Shown: positions 41,438 through 49,126 of the stretch, one piece after another
Layout: every line of letters starts with the position of its first letter
Numbering within the stretch: the stretch's first letter is position 1
NCBI RefSeq assembly: GCF_036170895.1
Contig: NZ_CP108036.1
Span: 6,669,501-6,733,500 of the forward strand
Direction: 5' to 3'
Length of the DNA stretch: 64,000 nucleotides
Origin: Streptomyces erythrochromogenes
Lineage (GTDB): Bacteria > Actinomycetota > Actinomycetes > Streptomycetales > Streptomycetaceae
Position numbers and translations under genes: made by a program
The notes under the pieces: model-generated
The model's database searches: none
The model's input: only the letters and a program-made list of their open reading frames with translations
What the model was told of the DNA's origin: nothing

Positions 41438-41467
41438 ATAATGGTCCCGACTCCTAGGATGGGCGCC

Positions 41468-42610
41468 GTGACTCCAGCCCACGCCCCGGTACCGTCCCCC
41501 GCCTCACCCAGCACGGCCCGGGCCATCAACGACCGCCTCGCCCTGCAACTCCTCCAGGACTCCGGACCGCTGACGGCCACCCAGCTCAAGACCATGACCG
41601 GCCTCTCCCGCCCGTCCGTCGCCGACCTCGTCGACCGGCTCACCGAAGCGGGCCTCATCGAGGTCGTCGGTGAATCCGGCGAACAGCGCCGCGGCCCCAA
41701 CGCCAAGCTCTACGGAATCGTCGCCAGCCGCGCCCACCTCGCCGCCCTCGACGTCCGCACCGACCGGGTCACCGCCGTCGTCACCGACCTGCTCGGCCAC
41801 CCCCTGGCCGAAGCCGCCCTGCCCGTCGGCGCACCCGAGGACGCGGTCGCGGCCCTGCTGCGCACCGCCCACGAGGCCGGCGCCGCCGAACTGCACACCG
41901 TCGTCGTGGGCGCCCCGGGCCTGGTCGCCCCCGCCACCGGCGAACTCCGCGACACCATCGGCCTCCCGGCCTGGCACCGGGACCTGGTCACCGCTCTGCA
42001 GCGGACCCTGCCCGCCGTCGTGGCCGTCGAGAACGAGACCAACCTCGCCGCCCTCGCCGAGCAGCGCCTGGGCGTCGCCCGCGACTTGGACTCCTTCGTC
42101 CTGCTGTGGCTCGGCGCGGGGGTGGGCGCGGCCGTGGTCCTGGACGGCCGACTGCGCCGGGGCGCCTCCGGCGGCGCGGGCGAGATCGGCTTCCTCCCCG
42201 TACCGGGCACCGGCGGGCTGCCCTCGGCGGTCGACTGCGCGGGCGGGTTCCACGCCCTGGTCGGCCGCGACGCCGTGACCGCGCTGGCACGCGAACACGG
42301 CTTCGCGGGCCCGGCGGAACAGGCCGTGGCGGGAGCCGCCGGCGAGCTCTTCCTCGAAGCCCTCGCCGAACGCCTCGCCCTGGGCGCGGCCGCGGCCGCG
42401 GCCCTCCTCGACCCGGGGTGCGTGGTCCTGGCAGGAGAACTCGGCCGCGCCGGCGGCCCCGCCCTGGCCGCCCGGGTCTCCCACCGCCTGGCGAAACTGA
42501 CCCCGGTCCCGACGGAGATCCGCGCCACGACTTTGGGCGACCCGGCAGTCCTGGCGGGCGCCCGCCTGGCAGCCCGCGAAGCGGCCCAGGGGGTGCTGTT
42601 CGGGGGATGA
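41468..42610 (+). CDS. ROK-family transcriptional regulator
   Basis: 380 residues from GTG 41468 with AGGA eight bases upstream; ATG 41459 is a possible start but abuts that site. The HTH region is LLQDSGPLTATQLKTMTGLS then RPSVADLVDRLTEAGLI, and the sugar-kinase-like ROK domain follows with VVVGAPGLVAP, VENETNLAALAEQRLG and LLWLGAGVGAAVV. The zinc-binding CxCGxxGC motif of classic ROK proteins is absent, since the region has only GTGGLPSAVDCAGGF. So it may bind a sugar ligand without zinc. It probably represses the divergent MFS gene by binding the palindrome at 41415-41437. Confidence 0.87.
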   Translation: MTPAHAPVPSPASPSTARAINDRLALQLLQDSGPLTATQLKTMTGLSRPSVADLVDRLTEAGLIEVVGESGEQRRGPNAKLYGIVASRAHLAALDVRTDRVTAVVTDLLGHPLAEAALPVGAPEDAVAALLRTAHEAGAAELHTVVVGAPGLVAPATGELRDTIGLPAWHRDLVTALQRTLPAVVAVENETNLAALAEQRLGVARDLDSFVLLWLGAGVGAAVVLDGRLRRGASGGAGEIGFLPVPGTGGLPSAVDCAGGFHALVGRDAVTALAREHGFAGPAEQAVAGAAGELFLEALAERLALGAAAAAALLDPGCVVLAGELGRAGGPALAARVSHRLAKLTPVPTEIRATTLGDPAVLAGARLAAREAAQGVLFGG

Positions 42611-42620
42611 GCCCGGCTGG

Positions 42621-42699
42621 CTCTGCCTCCTGGCCCTGCCTCCTGGACCTGCCCTGCTGGCCCTGGCCCCTGGACCTGCGCCCTGGACCTGCACGCTGA
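42621..42699 (+). repeat. 13-14 bp tandem repeat after the ROK gene
   Basis: About six copies of a 13-14 base unit, CCTGCCTCCTGGA and variants: 42635-42647 CCTGCCTCCTGGA, 42662-42674 CCTGGCCCCTGGA, 42675-42687 CCTGCGCCCTGGA. It begins 10 bases after the ROK stop. The period is not a multiple of three, so it is not a protein repeat. Length may vary between strains. Confidence 0.6.
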
Positions 42700-42714
42700 C
42701 CGTGACCGGTCAGC
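42695..42714. terminator. Terminator-like hairpin at the convergent ROK/DUF6086 end
   Basis: GCTGACC (42695-42701) pairs with GGTCAGC (42708-42714) around a six-base loop. It overlaps the last codons of the minus-strand gene ending at 42710 and follows the ROK gene, so it may stop transcription from either side. Confidence 0.45.
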
Positions 42715-43153
42715 GGGGCATGCGCCCTCCCAGCTCCCGCGCCTTCTCGCGCAGTCCCGCCCCCCAGGCTCCGCCGTCCGAAGCGTGGGGCCACCTCGTA
42801 CCCGCGGAAGCCTGTACGTCTTCGAAGGGCGCTGCCGACGCGGCCCCGATTCGTGCCCAGTTCAGCCTGATGCCGGCGCGCTCTGCGAGAACCAGCACGG
42901 TCGCGGTGAAGCCTTCGGAGAGCGCGAGGATGATGGCGTGGCCCGTTCTTCGGTGCTGCGCCAACAGGGCGTTGACGAAGGCCTCGAGTGCGACCGGGTC
43001 GATCTGACACTCATCGTTCTCCATCGGCCCGATGCCGGAGGGGAGTTCGAGCTCCGCCTCGAAGACCGCCACGTGGCGCCGGAACAGGCGTGAGGCGCCA
43101 TTGGAAGGGTTCCACAGGGTTTCGTCGCCCAGGTCGAAGTACTGGCTCACCAC
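42710..43153 (-). CDS. DUF6086-family protein
   Basis: 147 residues from GTG 43153 (or GTG 43150). It begins QYFDLGDETLWNPSNGASRL and continues with an acidic GIGPMENDECQIDP segment and a mostly helical core (LEAFVNALLAQHRRTGHAII). I place it in DUF6086, a streptomycete family of unknown role, from recollection of this N-terminus and not from a search. No membrane segment or catalytic motif is visible. GAGAGAGG lies eight bases upstream. It abuts the repeat region on its 5' side. Confidence 0.6.
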   Translation of the reverse strand: MVSQYFDLGDETLWNPSNGASRLFRRHVAVFEAELELPSGIGPMENDECQIDPVALEAFVNALLAQHRRTGHAIILALSEGFTATVLVLAERAGIRLNWARIGAASAAPFEDVQASAGTRWPHASDGGAWGAGLREKARELGGRMPR

Positions 43154-43277
43154 GCCGCCTCTCTCAACTGATCATGGCGGGGCAGCGTATCCGGCGGGAC
43201 GATGTGGGGCCCTGAATATTTGAGGCGGGGTGGCGTGGGGGAGCGGGATCCCAGGACTCGGTGGTCAGTGAGGTGCT

Positions 43278-43558
43278 GGGGGTTTCCCGTCAGTCCCATC
43301 GTCTCTCCGGTTCGTGCCGGCCCGTCAAGGGCGCTCCTTCGTCGCGTCGCTTCGCGATGGCCTTCGGCCACCCTTGACCGCCCGTCCCGCCCCGGAAATC
43401 CGAAAGACTGCCGGGAAGCCCCCAAAGGGACGGGCCGGGCCTTCAAAAGAGAGACGGCCACATCAGTGATGGGCGGGGCGGTCGGGGAAGCGCGTCTAAT
43501 CGCTACGCGCTCCTGTCGTGAAGCGTCTGCGAGCCTCTTGGGCTGGGCATAGGCCGCC
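43278..43558 (+). repeat. Left arm of a ~1-kb quasi-palindrome
   Basis: 281 bases that recur in inverted form at 43978-44260 with few mismatches, for example the shared blocks around the CAGTCCCATCGTCTCTCC, CGGAAATCCGAAAGACTGCC and CAAAAGAGAGACGGCCACAT sequences. Differences are confined to short patches (about 43310-43325 and 43357-43370). No plausible gene is inside: short frames in both arms are reverse-complement images of one another. I recall similar translated fragments in many streptomycete genomes, so this may be a dispersed element; that memory has not been checked. Confidence 0.85.
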
Positions 43559-43640
43559 TCGGATCGCTACGCGCTTCGCCAGGACGGCGTCTGCGAGCCG
43601 TCAGGGGCTGGACATAGGCCGCCATCGATCGCTACGCGCT
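43499..43640 (+). repeat. Tandem 64-65 bp units (left side)
   Basis: ATCGCTACGCGC starts units at 43499, 43563 and 43628, a period of 64-65 bases. Units share GCGTCTGCGAGCC and GGGCTGG(A/G)CATAGGCCGCC. The first lies in the left arm and the others in the spacer. The reverse image occurs on the right side. Confidence 0.75.
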
Positions 43641-43708
43641 TCTCCGAGACCGCGTCCGCCCCTTGTTCGGGGCTGGGAGGGGCGGATTTGGGGGGCGGGA
43701 GGGCGATC

Positions 43709-43852
43709 CATCGGCTGAGCCGATGCCAACCCCCATCAAGGCCGAGGTGGCATCCCACTTGCCCGCCCAAACGGGGGCAATTGATGCAATCGGACGGCTC
43801 TCCGAGGCCTCTACCCACCTACACCTGGATTGGCATCGCCTCAGCCGTCATC
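43709..43852. repeat. Inner inverted repeat and centre of the quasi-palindrome
   Basis: CATCGGCTGAGCCGATGCCA (43709-43728) is mirrored by TGGCATCGCCTCAGCCGTCA (about 43830-43850). The centre (43735-43805) is less symmetric and has CCCGCCCAAACGGGGGC. The fold could extend through the whole kilobase. Confidence 0.6.
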
Positions 43853-43895
43853 TGGCGCTTTTCCTCCCCCCAACCGCCCTTGGACGCCGTGCATG

Positions 43896-44038
43896 AGGAG
43901 CGAATCGGGCCTCTGCGGCTTATGACCAGCCCCAGACGGTCTGCGGACGCGTGATCGAGGAGCGCGTAGCGATCGATGGCGGCCTATGTCCAGCCCAAGA
44001 GGCTGGCAGACGCCGAGCCGTGAGGAGCGCGTAGCGAT
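43896..44038 (-). repeat. Tandem 65-66 bp units (right side, inverted)
   Basis: GCGCGTAGCGAT occurs at 43962-43973 and 44027-44038, 65 bases apart, with a degenerate third copy near 43896-43907. These are the inverted images of the left units, so the element has three units on each side. Confidence 0.7.
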
Positions 44039-44260
44039 TTGGGGCGCTCCCCGACCGCCCCGCCCATCGCTGATGTGGCCGTCTCTCTTTTGAAGGCCCG
44101 GCCCGTTCCTTTGGGGGCTTCCCGGCAGTCTTTCGGATTTCCGGGGCGGGACGGGCGGTCAAGGGTGGAGCGCAGCGACATCGCGAAGCGACGCGACGAA
44201 GGAGCGCCCTTGAGGGACCGGCACGAATCGGAGAGACGATGGGACTGACGGGAAACCCCC
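43978..44260 (-). repeat. Right arm of the ~1-kb quasi-palindrome
   Basis: 283 bases, the inverted counterpart of 43278-43558. Bases 44041-44160 (GGGGCGCTCCCCGACCGCCC and on) mirror 43381-43490. A gap-free inverted repeat of this length over a 419-base spacer is rare and would form a long hairpin RNA if transcribed through. Confidence 0.85.
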
Positions 44261-44309
44261 AAACCATCTCTGATGCCGCCCCGCGCAGCTCCCGCTCCCC
44301 GAAGCCCCC

Positions 44310-45113
44310 TCACGCTTTCGATCCGGCCCCGCCGGGCCCTGCTCCTACGGCGCCCCGGGCTCCCCGGGCTCCCCGGCCCGCCGCGAACTGCTCGAACGTT
44401 TCGTGGCCCACCGCGTGGGACGGGGTGAGGTGGCCGCCCCGGCGGAAGGCCGCGTAGGCCCTGCCCGCCAGGGGGACCGGGAGGATGCGGCGGTTGCGGC
44501 CCGTCGCCCGCAGGTAGACGCGGGCCAGGTCCGGCAGGCTGCGGATCTGCGGGCCGCCCATGTCCGGGACCCGGCCCGAGGGGGTCGGGACCGCCAGCTC
44601 CGCCATGCGGTCCGCGACCTCGCCCACCGCGATCGGCTGAACCCGTACGCCCTTGGGGATCGGCGCGACGGGCAGCTTCGCCACGGTGTCCGTCACCATC
44701 GCCACGAGGTCGTGGAACTGCGTCGTGCGCAGGATCGTCACGCCGAGCCCGGACGCCTCCAGCAGCCGCTCCACCCGGAGCTTGCGCTTGTAGTAGCCCA
44801 GCGGGACCACGTCCACCCCGACGATCGAGATGTAGACGATGTTCCCGACGGTCCCCGCCCGCCGGGCAGCCTCGATCAGGTGCCCGGCGGCCACGTCGTC
44901 GCCCTTGCCCGCCCCGCCCGTGTTGCTCGCGCAGTGCACGATCACCTCCGCGCCCGCCAGCGCCGCGTCCAGGCCGGCTCCGTCCTGGAGGTCGACGGGA
45001 TGGTCGGGGGCGTGCCGGCTGATCACTCGGACCTCGTGCCCGGCCGCCCGCAGCCGTTCGGCGACGAGCGAGCCGAGGGTTCCGGTGCCTCCGGTGACGA
45101 CGATGGTGCCCAT
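44310..45113 (-). CDS. NAD(P)-binding SDR/NmrA-like protein (ECF41-linked)
   Basis: 267 residues, ATG with GGAAGGA upstream. The N-terminal motif MGTIVVTGGTGTLGSLVAER (TGGTGxLG) is the NAD(P) site of atypical SDR proteins; the later RTTQFHDL and QPIAVGEVADRMAEL segments are typical of the NmrA/NAD-epimerase-like group. There is a Tyr-x-x-x-Lys in GYYKRKLRVERLL. It is the COE-type partner (carboxymuconolactone decarboxylase, oxidoreductase or epimerase) that ECF41 sigma factors commonly sit beside and control. Its promoter is the ECF41-type site at 45161-45187. It may handle a quinone or reactive compound; the substrate is unknown. The C-terminus is Gly/Ala-rich. Confidence 0.82.
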   Translation of the reverse strand: MGTIVVTGGTGTLGSLVAERLRAAGHEVRVISRHAPDHPVDLQDGAGLDAALAGAEVIVHCASNTGGAGKGDDVAAGHLIEAARRAGTVGNIVYISIVGVDVVPLGYYKRKLRVERLLEASGLGVTILRTTQFHDLVAMVTDTVAKLPVAPIPKGVRVQPIAVGEVADRMAELAVPTPSGRVPDMGGPQIRSLPDLARVYLRATGRNRRILPVPLAGRAYAAFRRGGHLTPSHAVGHETFEQFAAGRGARGARGAVGAGPGGAGSKA

Positions 45114-48705: not shown

Positions 48706-48831
48706 GCGCTTCCACTTGTCCAGGTGCGTGCCGGGACAGCCCCCCGGGTCGCCCTCTGTGAGCCAGGCCACACCACATCACCCGCATGGCGGGCGATCGG
48801 CCGTGGCAAACTGGCTGGAGTACCAGTAGCA

Positions 48832-48957
48832 GCGCACTCCGGGGTCGGTGTAATTCCGAACCGGCGGTATAGTCCGCGACCCGTCCGCAGCCAGCGGCCG
48901 GTTGACCAGGTGAAATTCCTGGACCGACGGTTAAAGTCCGGATGGGAGGCAGTGCGC
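48832..48957 (+). ncRNA. FMN riboswitch (RFN element)
   Basis: The whole RFN pattern is visible: closing pair GCGCACT (48832-48838) with AGTGCGC (48951-48957), inner conserved GGGGTCGGTGTAATTCCGAA and CCGGCGGTATAGTCCGCGAC, and the 3' part with GGTGAAATTCCTGGACCGAC and TAAAGTCCGGATGGGAGGCA. It precedes the rib operon and would reduce expression when FMN is high. The gap to the ribD start is 169 bases and has a small hairpin CTGTCG/CGACAG near 49062-49078 that may be part of the control region. Confidence 0.95.
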
Positions 48958-49126
48958 GGCGGGCCAGTCACCGGTACGCCGCCGTCGGCGGTTCATCGGC
49001 ATATCCCGTGGATGTGCCCGGTCGAACCGTTCTTCCGGCCTCGGCGTCCCCGCGTGAGCTGTTCCGCTCCATCTGTCGTATCCCGACAGGCCCCGGAGTC
49101 CGTGCCCGATGAGGCAGGAGGACCCG

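Follow-up and report, generated by a model that had tools for sequence, protein, structure and literature searches.

Paired inverted hairpin arms with differing centres: a putative family of foldback-type insertion elements in streptomycetes

The mirror repeat analyzed here lies in a 64,000-nt stretch of the Streptomyces erythrochromogenes chromosome (the window; NZ_CP108036.1, positions 6,669,501 to 6,733,500) and constitutes an insertion without cargo, with a DUF6086 gene on one side and an NmrA-like gene on the other. Our preferred explanation, to which we assign a probability of roughly 0.55, is that it represents a family of enzyme-less, foldback-type insertion elements in streptomycetes, with long inverted repeats whose homogenised arms form the borders of cassette exchange. 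The unit would consist of an arm, a centre and an inverted arm, each arm ending in a long hairpin whose tip as a rule bears three GNA-triloop mini-hairpins. The arms may be kept alike, and the centres swapped, through homologous recombination or gene conversion from arm to arm, and the arms would then border a cassette-exchange platform that operates without an integrase; the original insertion may have depended on a putative activity in trans, perhaps acting on the hairpin as single-stranded DNA. At the level of sequence comparison, the paired inverted arms, the covariation of the hairpin, insertion, shared loci, homogenised arms and differing centres are established, and exchange and gene conversion are the processes that these comparisons would imply. 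Paired inserts with centres varying between species suggest a hitherto unrecognised route by which accessory genes are carried and exchanged. If this is true, fixed sites in the core chromosome can take up small accessory genes, such as those for acetyltransferases, VOC proteins and enzyme-regulator pairs, although the element itself brings neither transposase nor integrase, and the mechanism of cassette exchange becomes directly testable. A literature search found no published description of the element, which is weak evidence since subscription papers and preprints lay outside its scope.

Anatomy of the window element

The quasi-palindrome proved to be real and somewhat longer than described in the first-pass annotation, covering about 1.05 kb (43225-44310) with two inverted arms of about 350 nt each; likeness to other copies runs some 50 nt outward of the arm limits first described, and the BLAST matches of several other elements of this genome begin at 43224-43226. 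Inverted-repeat analysis confirmed the arms and their nested units, whose coordinates had been right to within tens of bases, and the inner inverted repeat proposed at 43709/43830 is visible in the sequence. From the outside inward, each arm comprises a decaying G-rich flank, a hairpin of about 150 nt and tandem units of 64-65 nt. The symmetry is carried by inverted repeats at 43368-43488/44048-44168 (121 nt, 98% complementary), 43265-43359/44179-44273 (95 nt, 92%), 43523-43586/43950-44013 (64 nt, 84%) and 43605-43644/43957-43996 (40 nt, 98%), together with a weak outer one at 43229-43248/44290-44309 (85%). The 65-nt tandem units start at 43476, 43540 and 43605 (60-75% identity to the reference unit) and have mirror copies in the right arm, and the spacer is kept in several cargo-free elements of the same genome, with full-length matches in loci L032, L034, L039 and L042 at 86.5-89%. 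The features are as follows (window coordinates; L and G numbers denote loci and genomes, S numbers sites compared between genomes).

41441..42610, plus strand: ROK-family gene (PF00480, E=3.6e-29), left neighbour at the junction as in relatives
42710..43153, minus strand: DUF6086 gene (PF19564, E=2.6e-48), immediate left neighbour
43225..43276, no strand: outer G-rich flank of the left arm, common to other elements and decaying outward (end alignment)
43277..43424, plus strand: left terminal hairpin (fold; covariation of the core part)
43307..43395, plus strand: left conserved core (covariance model R1, 92.1 bits; equals L031:3808-3896)
43347..43358, plus strand: signature 12-mer TCGCTNCGCGAT, mini-hairpin M2 (exact-motif count in this genome)
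43476..43669, plus strand: three tandem units of 64-65 nt, left arm (repeat comparison)
43709..43850, no strand: spacer with an inverted repeat of its own (visible in the sequence)
43915..44046, minus strand: mirrored units of 64-65 nt, right arm (repeat comparison)
44112..44261, minus strand: right terminal hairpin (sequence; fold of 44107-44262)
44141..44231, minus strand: right conserved core (R1, 73.0 bits; 12-mer at 44180-44191)
44262..44310, no strand: outer flank of the right arm (inverted repeats, BLAST, end alignment)
44310..45113, minus strand: NmrA-like NAD(P)-binding gene, right neighbour (PF13460/PF05368; query for the empty sites)

A coding function of the arms was rejected. Core lengths of 53, 55 and 57 nt occurred in 10, 16 and 7 of 33 arms of this genome (script pattern) and thus fall in all three frames, so the arms are not coding and hold no conserved frame; the small frames mirror each other, in agreement with the earlier judgement that they are not convincing genes. 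The suspicion that translated fragments of this kind stand as spurious proteins in many streptomycetes was partly borne out, as four Streptomyces proteins annotated as 'hypothetical/predicted' are similar to an arm in translation, and some annotated 'hypothetical proteins' may be explained as translated repeats. In an Rfam search of the window, the element itself matched no known RNA family, and the search of 11 loci gave one match, the Scr2736 sRNA, away from the element. The sole Rfam match in the window is an FMN riboswitch (RF00050, 101 bits) at 48830-48959.

Hairpin structure of the arms

The left hairpin is built from an outer stem (GGGGGTTTCCCGTCAGTC/GACTGCCGGGAAGCCCCC), an inner stem (GTCAAGGG/CCCTTGAC) and three apical mini-hairpins. 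For comparison, alignment A1 of 35 arms over 96 columns was assembled from genomes G000, G004, G006, G011, G012, G015, G026 and G033, the arms being picked by hand after 6 of 162 regex rows had been judged spurious. The inner stem around TCAAGGG/CCCTTGA is nearly invariant, and the outer stem varies between species with covariation. In A1, 84.2% of cells were paired and 22 of 37 pairs had changes on both sides; shuffled alignments had a mean of 11.7 such pairs (0 of 500 shuffles reached 22) and slid versions of A1 were paired to 30-51% with 7-13 such pairs, although as evidence of selection this covariation is weakened by the fact that template switching, when it corrects an imperfect palindrome, can likewise produce covarying pairs. 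Full hairpins gave fold z-scores of -3.5 to -6.0 with mononucleotide shuffles, and two z-scores for the 91-nt core alone were unremarkable (-1.1 and -1.2).

Exactly three mini-hairpins were present in 158 of 179 distinct apices. The apical triloop was TNC, equivalent to GNA on the complementary strand, in 432 of 521 cases, and 452 of the 521 were closed by C-G; in the loci of this genome, arms included, triloop hairpins with a stem length of 4 or more numbered 1254, of which 97 were TNC and 104 GNA. When the strands of the left hairpin were folded as DNA, the GNA strand did better than its complement (z of -6.0 versus -3.5, mononucleotide shuffles). An apex thus usually bears three mini-hairpins with GNA triloops, which is a signature of single-stranded DNA; mini-hairpins of this type are unusually stable in single-stranded DNA generally.

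Palindromes II and III of Streptomyces telomeres, in the excerpted account of PMC4513846, form hairpins with GCA loops and sheared G:A closure, and Tap binds single strands there. The arms might by analogy be telomere-like or replication-origin relics, with single-stranded hairpins for a Tap/Tpg-like system and the unit as an integrated minute linear replicon. The stem of an arm does enclose hairpins with G-N-A loops, the same loop type as in the telomere palindromes (PMC4513846, as excerpted), but we consider this origin very improbable: the arms are internal, paired and of other sequence, the signature motif did not occur at any of eight contig ends from six genomes, each read over 2-3 kb (two of these ends, L403 and L404, do not look telomere-like), and no replication gene was seen in the units.

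Copies and distribution

A query of 444 nt from the left half gave at least 35 matches in the S. erythrochromogenes genome at 77-100% identity, the top match being the window itself, and the covariance model identified at least 34 arms at E<1e-7, arranged as at least 16 head-to-head (> <) pairs and 2 solo arms (at 3480783 and 3771067), numbers well above what chance would produce. These copy numbers are lower bounds, with 40 (nucleotide searches) or 150 (covariance model) candidates scored in this genome and 29 per genome in the genus sample; moreover, R1 includes sequences of this genome, its E-values are rough, and regex and model both favour core-bearing arms. The arms are thus not unique to the window, and the view that it holds two copies of a short dispersed element stands as to dispersal but not as to the short unit: 16 of 18 sites in this genome are > < pairs, so that the dispersed unit is the pair rather than two chance neighbours. 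Neighbouring arms less than 2.5 kb apart were oriented > <, with L034, whose third arm gives < <, as the exception. The head-to-head rule is also broken by L181:298-5452 of S. griseoluteus, with two same-strand core matches 5 kb apart in weakly similar (70%) inverted surroundings. All copies in S. erythrochromogenes lie within 2.95-6.74 Mb of the 8.50-Mb chromosome. Both chromosome ends (L397, L398) carry near-identical palindrome arrays of telomere-like appearance, and the assembly therefore seems complete and linear.

R1 matched 45 of 150 sampled Streptomyces genomes at E<=1e-4, with two or more matches in 29 of the 45, in line with the earlier proposal of a dispersed, gene-free element of two head-to-head arms that recurs in other streptomycetes. 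In a sample of the phylum, 8 of 396 genomes matched at E<=1e-5, three of them, including the one studied here, from the genus Streptomyces, and a pattern scan of named genomes yielded at least 112 stretches. Mirror repeats of about 1 kb without coding capacity in these genomes are to be regarded as real elements. Matches outside Streptomyces came from Actinomadura, Nocardia, Frankia, Phycicoccus, Caulobacter MAGs and others, with long arms in L168 only among the loci listed. In plasmids, 13 records matched in part and none reached 80% query coverage, and a phage search gave no match to the element. A linear plasmid of Streptomyces sp. NBC_00158 carries one arm (L362:4363-4455) directly after a GNAT gene, and solo core-like hairpins occur on plasmids of S. 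virginiae, Candidatus Mycobacterium methanotrophicum and Nocardia sp. (L364-L366).

The arms could alternatively be functional structures of transcription or of the chromosome (terminator, insulator, structured RNA, protein-binding hub) that stay alike through one protein or RNA constraint. The hairpin is conserved, all copies in S. erythrochromogenes keep to the chromosomal stretch given above, and the signature 12-mer is nearly confined to arms, its 36 occurrences in this genome corresponding to one per arm in 34 arms and 2 elsewhere. We nevertheless deem such a function improbable as the general explanation, given the lack of an Rfam match for the element, the absence of a match at threshold from 105 of the 150 sampled genomes, and the variable presence at one and the same site between relatives. 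A common terminator role was rejected because the flanking genes are convergent, tandem or divergent.

Insertion sites and empty loci

The NmrA gene next to the window element was matched in 68 of 150 genomes; 30 of these loci were fetched and 16 scanned, among which arms occurred at the S. erythrochromogenes locus only. The first-pass annotation had proposed a comparison with sister strains lacking the element, and relatives that lack it exist: only 59 bp (G070) and 90 bp (G055) separate the matched ends of the ROK and NmrA genes, with no remnant visible, and the two genes directly adjoin each other in L334 and L335. The ROK-NmrA junction (window 41441-45113) is occupied by a beta-lactamase-fold gene in G058, by CorA in G150 and by a beta-helix protein in G054, and here by the DUF6086 gene and the element; the single different genes in those three genomes indicate that the junction tolerates insertions.

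At site S7, adjacent to a MaoC-like gene (PF01575) present in 100 of 101 genomes, 30 loci out of the 100 matching genomes were scanned. Arms were found at two of them (G054, G070), where the matched neighbour ends are about 1.2 kb apart. Among the 28 arm-free loci, 22 have a TetR gene (PF00440) at 95-370 bp between matched ends and no R1 match, and the TetR neighbour was not seen at the other 6; the S. erythrochromogenes genome is itself empty at S7. L145 is filled, and L203 holds one solo arm in a 394-bp gap. At S4, arms were present at 4 of 30 scanned loci (101 matching genomes), and the S4 site of G058 carries a scar, GGGATCAGGGTTTGGGGGTTTCCCG at L374:561-1000, that corresponds to the left outer end of the element. 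Loss of the element therefore also happens, and some of the empty sites could be secondary.

As far as genome comparison tells, the units are insertions into intergenic sites that are empty in relatives. Target duplications at the arm boundaries, which the first-pass annotation had suggested looking for, were seen neither at the ends of elements in S. erythrochromogenes nor at L111/L113 nor in the comparison of filled and empty S7 sites, and end comparisons gave no exact end common to the elements. Old insertions could have lost their target duplication.

Shared loci, differing centres and cargo

Both flanks of 7 of the 16 S. erythrochromogenes stretches (L033, L034, L037, L038, L039, L042, L045) match arm-bearing loci of other genomes, and three more (L041, L043, L046) match such loci on one flank. 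Shared loci were sought by flank comparison and gene order among loci that had been fetched because they carry arms, so that sharing is over-represented in these counts. An assembly error is contradicted by the recurrence of copies at identical junctions in independent assemblies, and nothing but the palindromic shape could be adduced in its favour; we regard its chance as negligible. At eight both-flank shared loci, the centres differ between genomes:

S1: GNAT / none (S. goshikiensis); G054 also none, with a one-side match only
S2: none / SnoaL
S3: none / aminotransferase
S4: none / AKR and TetR / 185-aa protein
S5: third arm, GntR and sub-threshold DUF3592 genes / PadR and hydrolase
S6: MarR with a sub-threshold polyketide-cyclase-like protein / none / none
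S11: none / GDSL and DDE_5
S12: none / 423-aa protein without Pfam match

No cargo was present in the copies read at S7. Shared loci, concerted arms and carried genes had escaped the first-pass annotation because other genomes are needed to see them, and its interpretation is partly supported.

Complete pairs numbered 63, of which 16 are from S. erythrochromogenes and 47 from G004, G006, G012, G054, G057, G062, G070, G090, G099, G101, G150, G509 and S. goshikiensis. A uniform frame filter, which counts a doubtful 123-aa frame (L044) and a 234-aa frame without Pfam match (L094) and misses L147, found a candidate frame in 16 of the 63, and 12 of the 63 had Pfam support above the curated cut-off. 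Candidate frames were distributed over S. erythrochromogenes (3 of 16 pairs), G090 (5/5), G070 (2/5), G150 (1/5), G054 (1/7), G509 (2/3), G099 (1/3) and G062 (1/1), with zero in G006 (9 pairs), G004 (3), G012 (2), G057 (2), G101 (1) and S. goshikiensis (1). The following cargo was assigned by Pfam:

L038: GNAT
L045: 2OG-Fe(II) oxygenase
L096: two GNATs
L097: class IV aminotransferase
L098: glyoxalase/VOC
L099: SnoaL
L100: aldo/keto reductase (AKR) with TetR
L108: AraC with GyrI-like/Cass2
L139: PadR with alpha/beta hydrolase
L144: GDSL lipase with DDE_5 transposase gene (unit L144:3028-6399)
L148: EryCIII-like glycosyltransferase
L150: MarR

A further frame without Pfam match lies between the arms of L147, and public records add two genes so placed, one for DUF222 in L168 and one resembling aminoglycoside adenylyltransferase in L163. 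Cargo-free units encode no enzyme genes. Since most units are empty, cargo may be incidental.

The AKR and TetR genes of L100 have counterparts of 79-89% identity in nine other genomes, including S. erythrochromogenes itself (at 0.78 Mb). The matches start at the AKR stop or a few bases ahead of it, 7 of 9 end near the TetR stop and two are shorter, and no arms enclose the counterparts in the fetched stretches. In L305 (G058), an arm starts some 20-30 bp past the TetR gene, with the AKR and TetR unit outside the arm. The three-arm locus L034:3648-6903 (> < <), with GntR and DUF3592-like genes between arms two and three, could be an intermediate of cargo capture. L095 and L147 are the same locus with the same gene in two species, the pattern that a resident gene would produce (L095 alone gives a weak GH88 match), and L163 and L201 have one gene in common (83%) at different loci in different species.

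Homogenisation of the arms

Identities were determined for 126 arms of the 63 pairs. The median was 84.0% between the two arms of one element (n=63) and 84.4% between arms at different loci of one genome (n=872); between genomes, it was 63.2% at shared loci (n=68) and 57.4% at other loci (n=6872). For the 14 genome pairs with a shared locus, the shared-locus minus the other-locus median amounted to -1.9 to +1.4 points, and within-genome medians spanned 71.3% (G509) to 91.7% (G090). Judged by these identities, locus ancestry is without visible trace in the arms, which amounts to concerted evolution; the low within-genome likeness in G509 counts against this. Whole elements can be nearly identical at different loci, namely L032/L034 of S. 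erythrochromogenes (99.4%), L111/L113 of G054 (99.4%; 98.6% over a longer stretch) and L112/L133 of G054 (97.7%). At four G054 loci, near-identity extends about 50-100 nt beyond the hairpins, and in L032/L034 it breaks at the hairpin base on one side. The L112 and L113 loci carry diverged elements in other genomes with both flanks matched (L113: G070, G509), and so does the L111 locus, by a one-flank match, in S. erythrochromogenes and S. goshikiensis. Fresh transposition as an account of L111/L113 was dropped in favour of conversion, since the L113 (both flanks) and L111 (one flank) loci carry elements elsewhere; gene conversion is the simplest reading of these identities.

An ordinary non-autonomous transposon, i.e., a large MITE/TIME-like element with a putative transposase in trans, is a serious yet rather unlikely alternative, in which gene-carrying forms would be composite and shared loci old and vertically inherited. 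It would agree with a discrete unit that has similar outer ends at four G054 loci, with empty sites in relatives and near-identical copies at different loci, as well as with the composite-like locus L034 and the unit adjoining an arm from outside in L305. Vertical inheritance alone, however, does not account for the finding that sharing a locus makes arms no more alike than arms from other loci, target duplications were not seen, and the interiors read hold no transposase except the one DDE_5 gene of L144. The candidate DUF222, which we take to be of the REP13E12 type, was rejected as mobiliser, though kept as a lead: it occurs in 7 of 150 sampled Streptomyces genomes only and is lacking in S. 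erythrochromogenes, G054, G006 and G090. In Actinomadura sp. KC06, a unit (L168:2423-4978) has arms 98% identical around a DUF222 gene, and DUF222 genes in L217, L222, L268 and L270 have an R1-like core hairpin alongside; these loci are a possible autonomous relative.

Comparison with known systems

Eukaryotic foldback elements of the FB/Tm1 type, in the excerpts of PMC3169594, have long composite inverted repeats with tandem subrepeats and a heterogeneous centre that may hold a gene; the same excerpts describe MITE-like empty forms and ectopic-recombination hot spots. The elements described here likewise combine long terminal inverted repeats and tandem subrepeats with a heterogeneous centre, with or without passenger genes, and by this analogy their anatomy is such that it would work like that of a foldback element. 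They differ in being bacterial, in lacking a visible 9-bp target-site duplication, and in their 64-nt subrepeats, conserved multi-branched hairpin and concerted arms at shared loci. Foldback forms with a transposase that could serve as source were not found; the unit L144 does contain one DDE_5 gene.

Prokaryotic MITEs are typically shorter than 500 bp with TIRs of about 4-30 bp, and direct repeats flank younger copies (PMC10969869, in the part excerpted), and two non-coding inverted-repeat copies can bound a passenger gene in TIME-COMP and integron mobilisation units (excerpts of PMC10969869 and PMC13367494). The present elements resemble MITEs and TIMEs in being non-coding, multicopy and inserted, and in arm copies that bound a passenger gene. 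They are unlike them in size (about 0.85-2.5 kb, arms of about 350 nt), in the absence of visible direct repeats, in the pair as the unit and in loci shared between species. No autonomous transposon with the same ends was found, DUF222 standing beside a core-like hairpin at five loci. The first-pass suggestion of a MITE in the usual sense is therefore not upheld, given arms of this length, a unit of about 0.85 kb or more, and neither a visible target duplication nor a transposase found.

REP/BIME sequences, as excerpted from PMC2817692, are dispersed extragenic hairpins in alternate orientation with more than 100 copies. Dispersal and alternating orientation are shared by our elements, but an arm measures about 350 nt and a unit about 1 kb, with tens of arms per genome.

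Integron cassettes depend on an integrase, carry one attC each and are arrayed. The present elements differ from them in having two inverted arms per cassette and scattered loci, with no integrase noticed among the genes read. A more far-reaching interpretation than our preferred one, which we put forward tentatively and would not bet on, is a gene-exchange system of a new class, namely chromosomal docks each framed by two inverted hairpin arms of single-stranded-DNA type that gene conversion keeps alike genome-wide. Any armed cassette, incoming or resident, would swap into any dock by ordinary recombination, so that conserved loci across the Streptomyces core chromosome would in effect act as an integron that needs no integrase. 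As with attC sites, folded borders of single-strand type surround small exchangeable genes, and the L108 cargo carries the integron-associated Cass2 domain.
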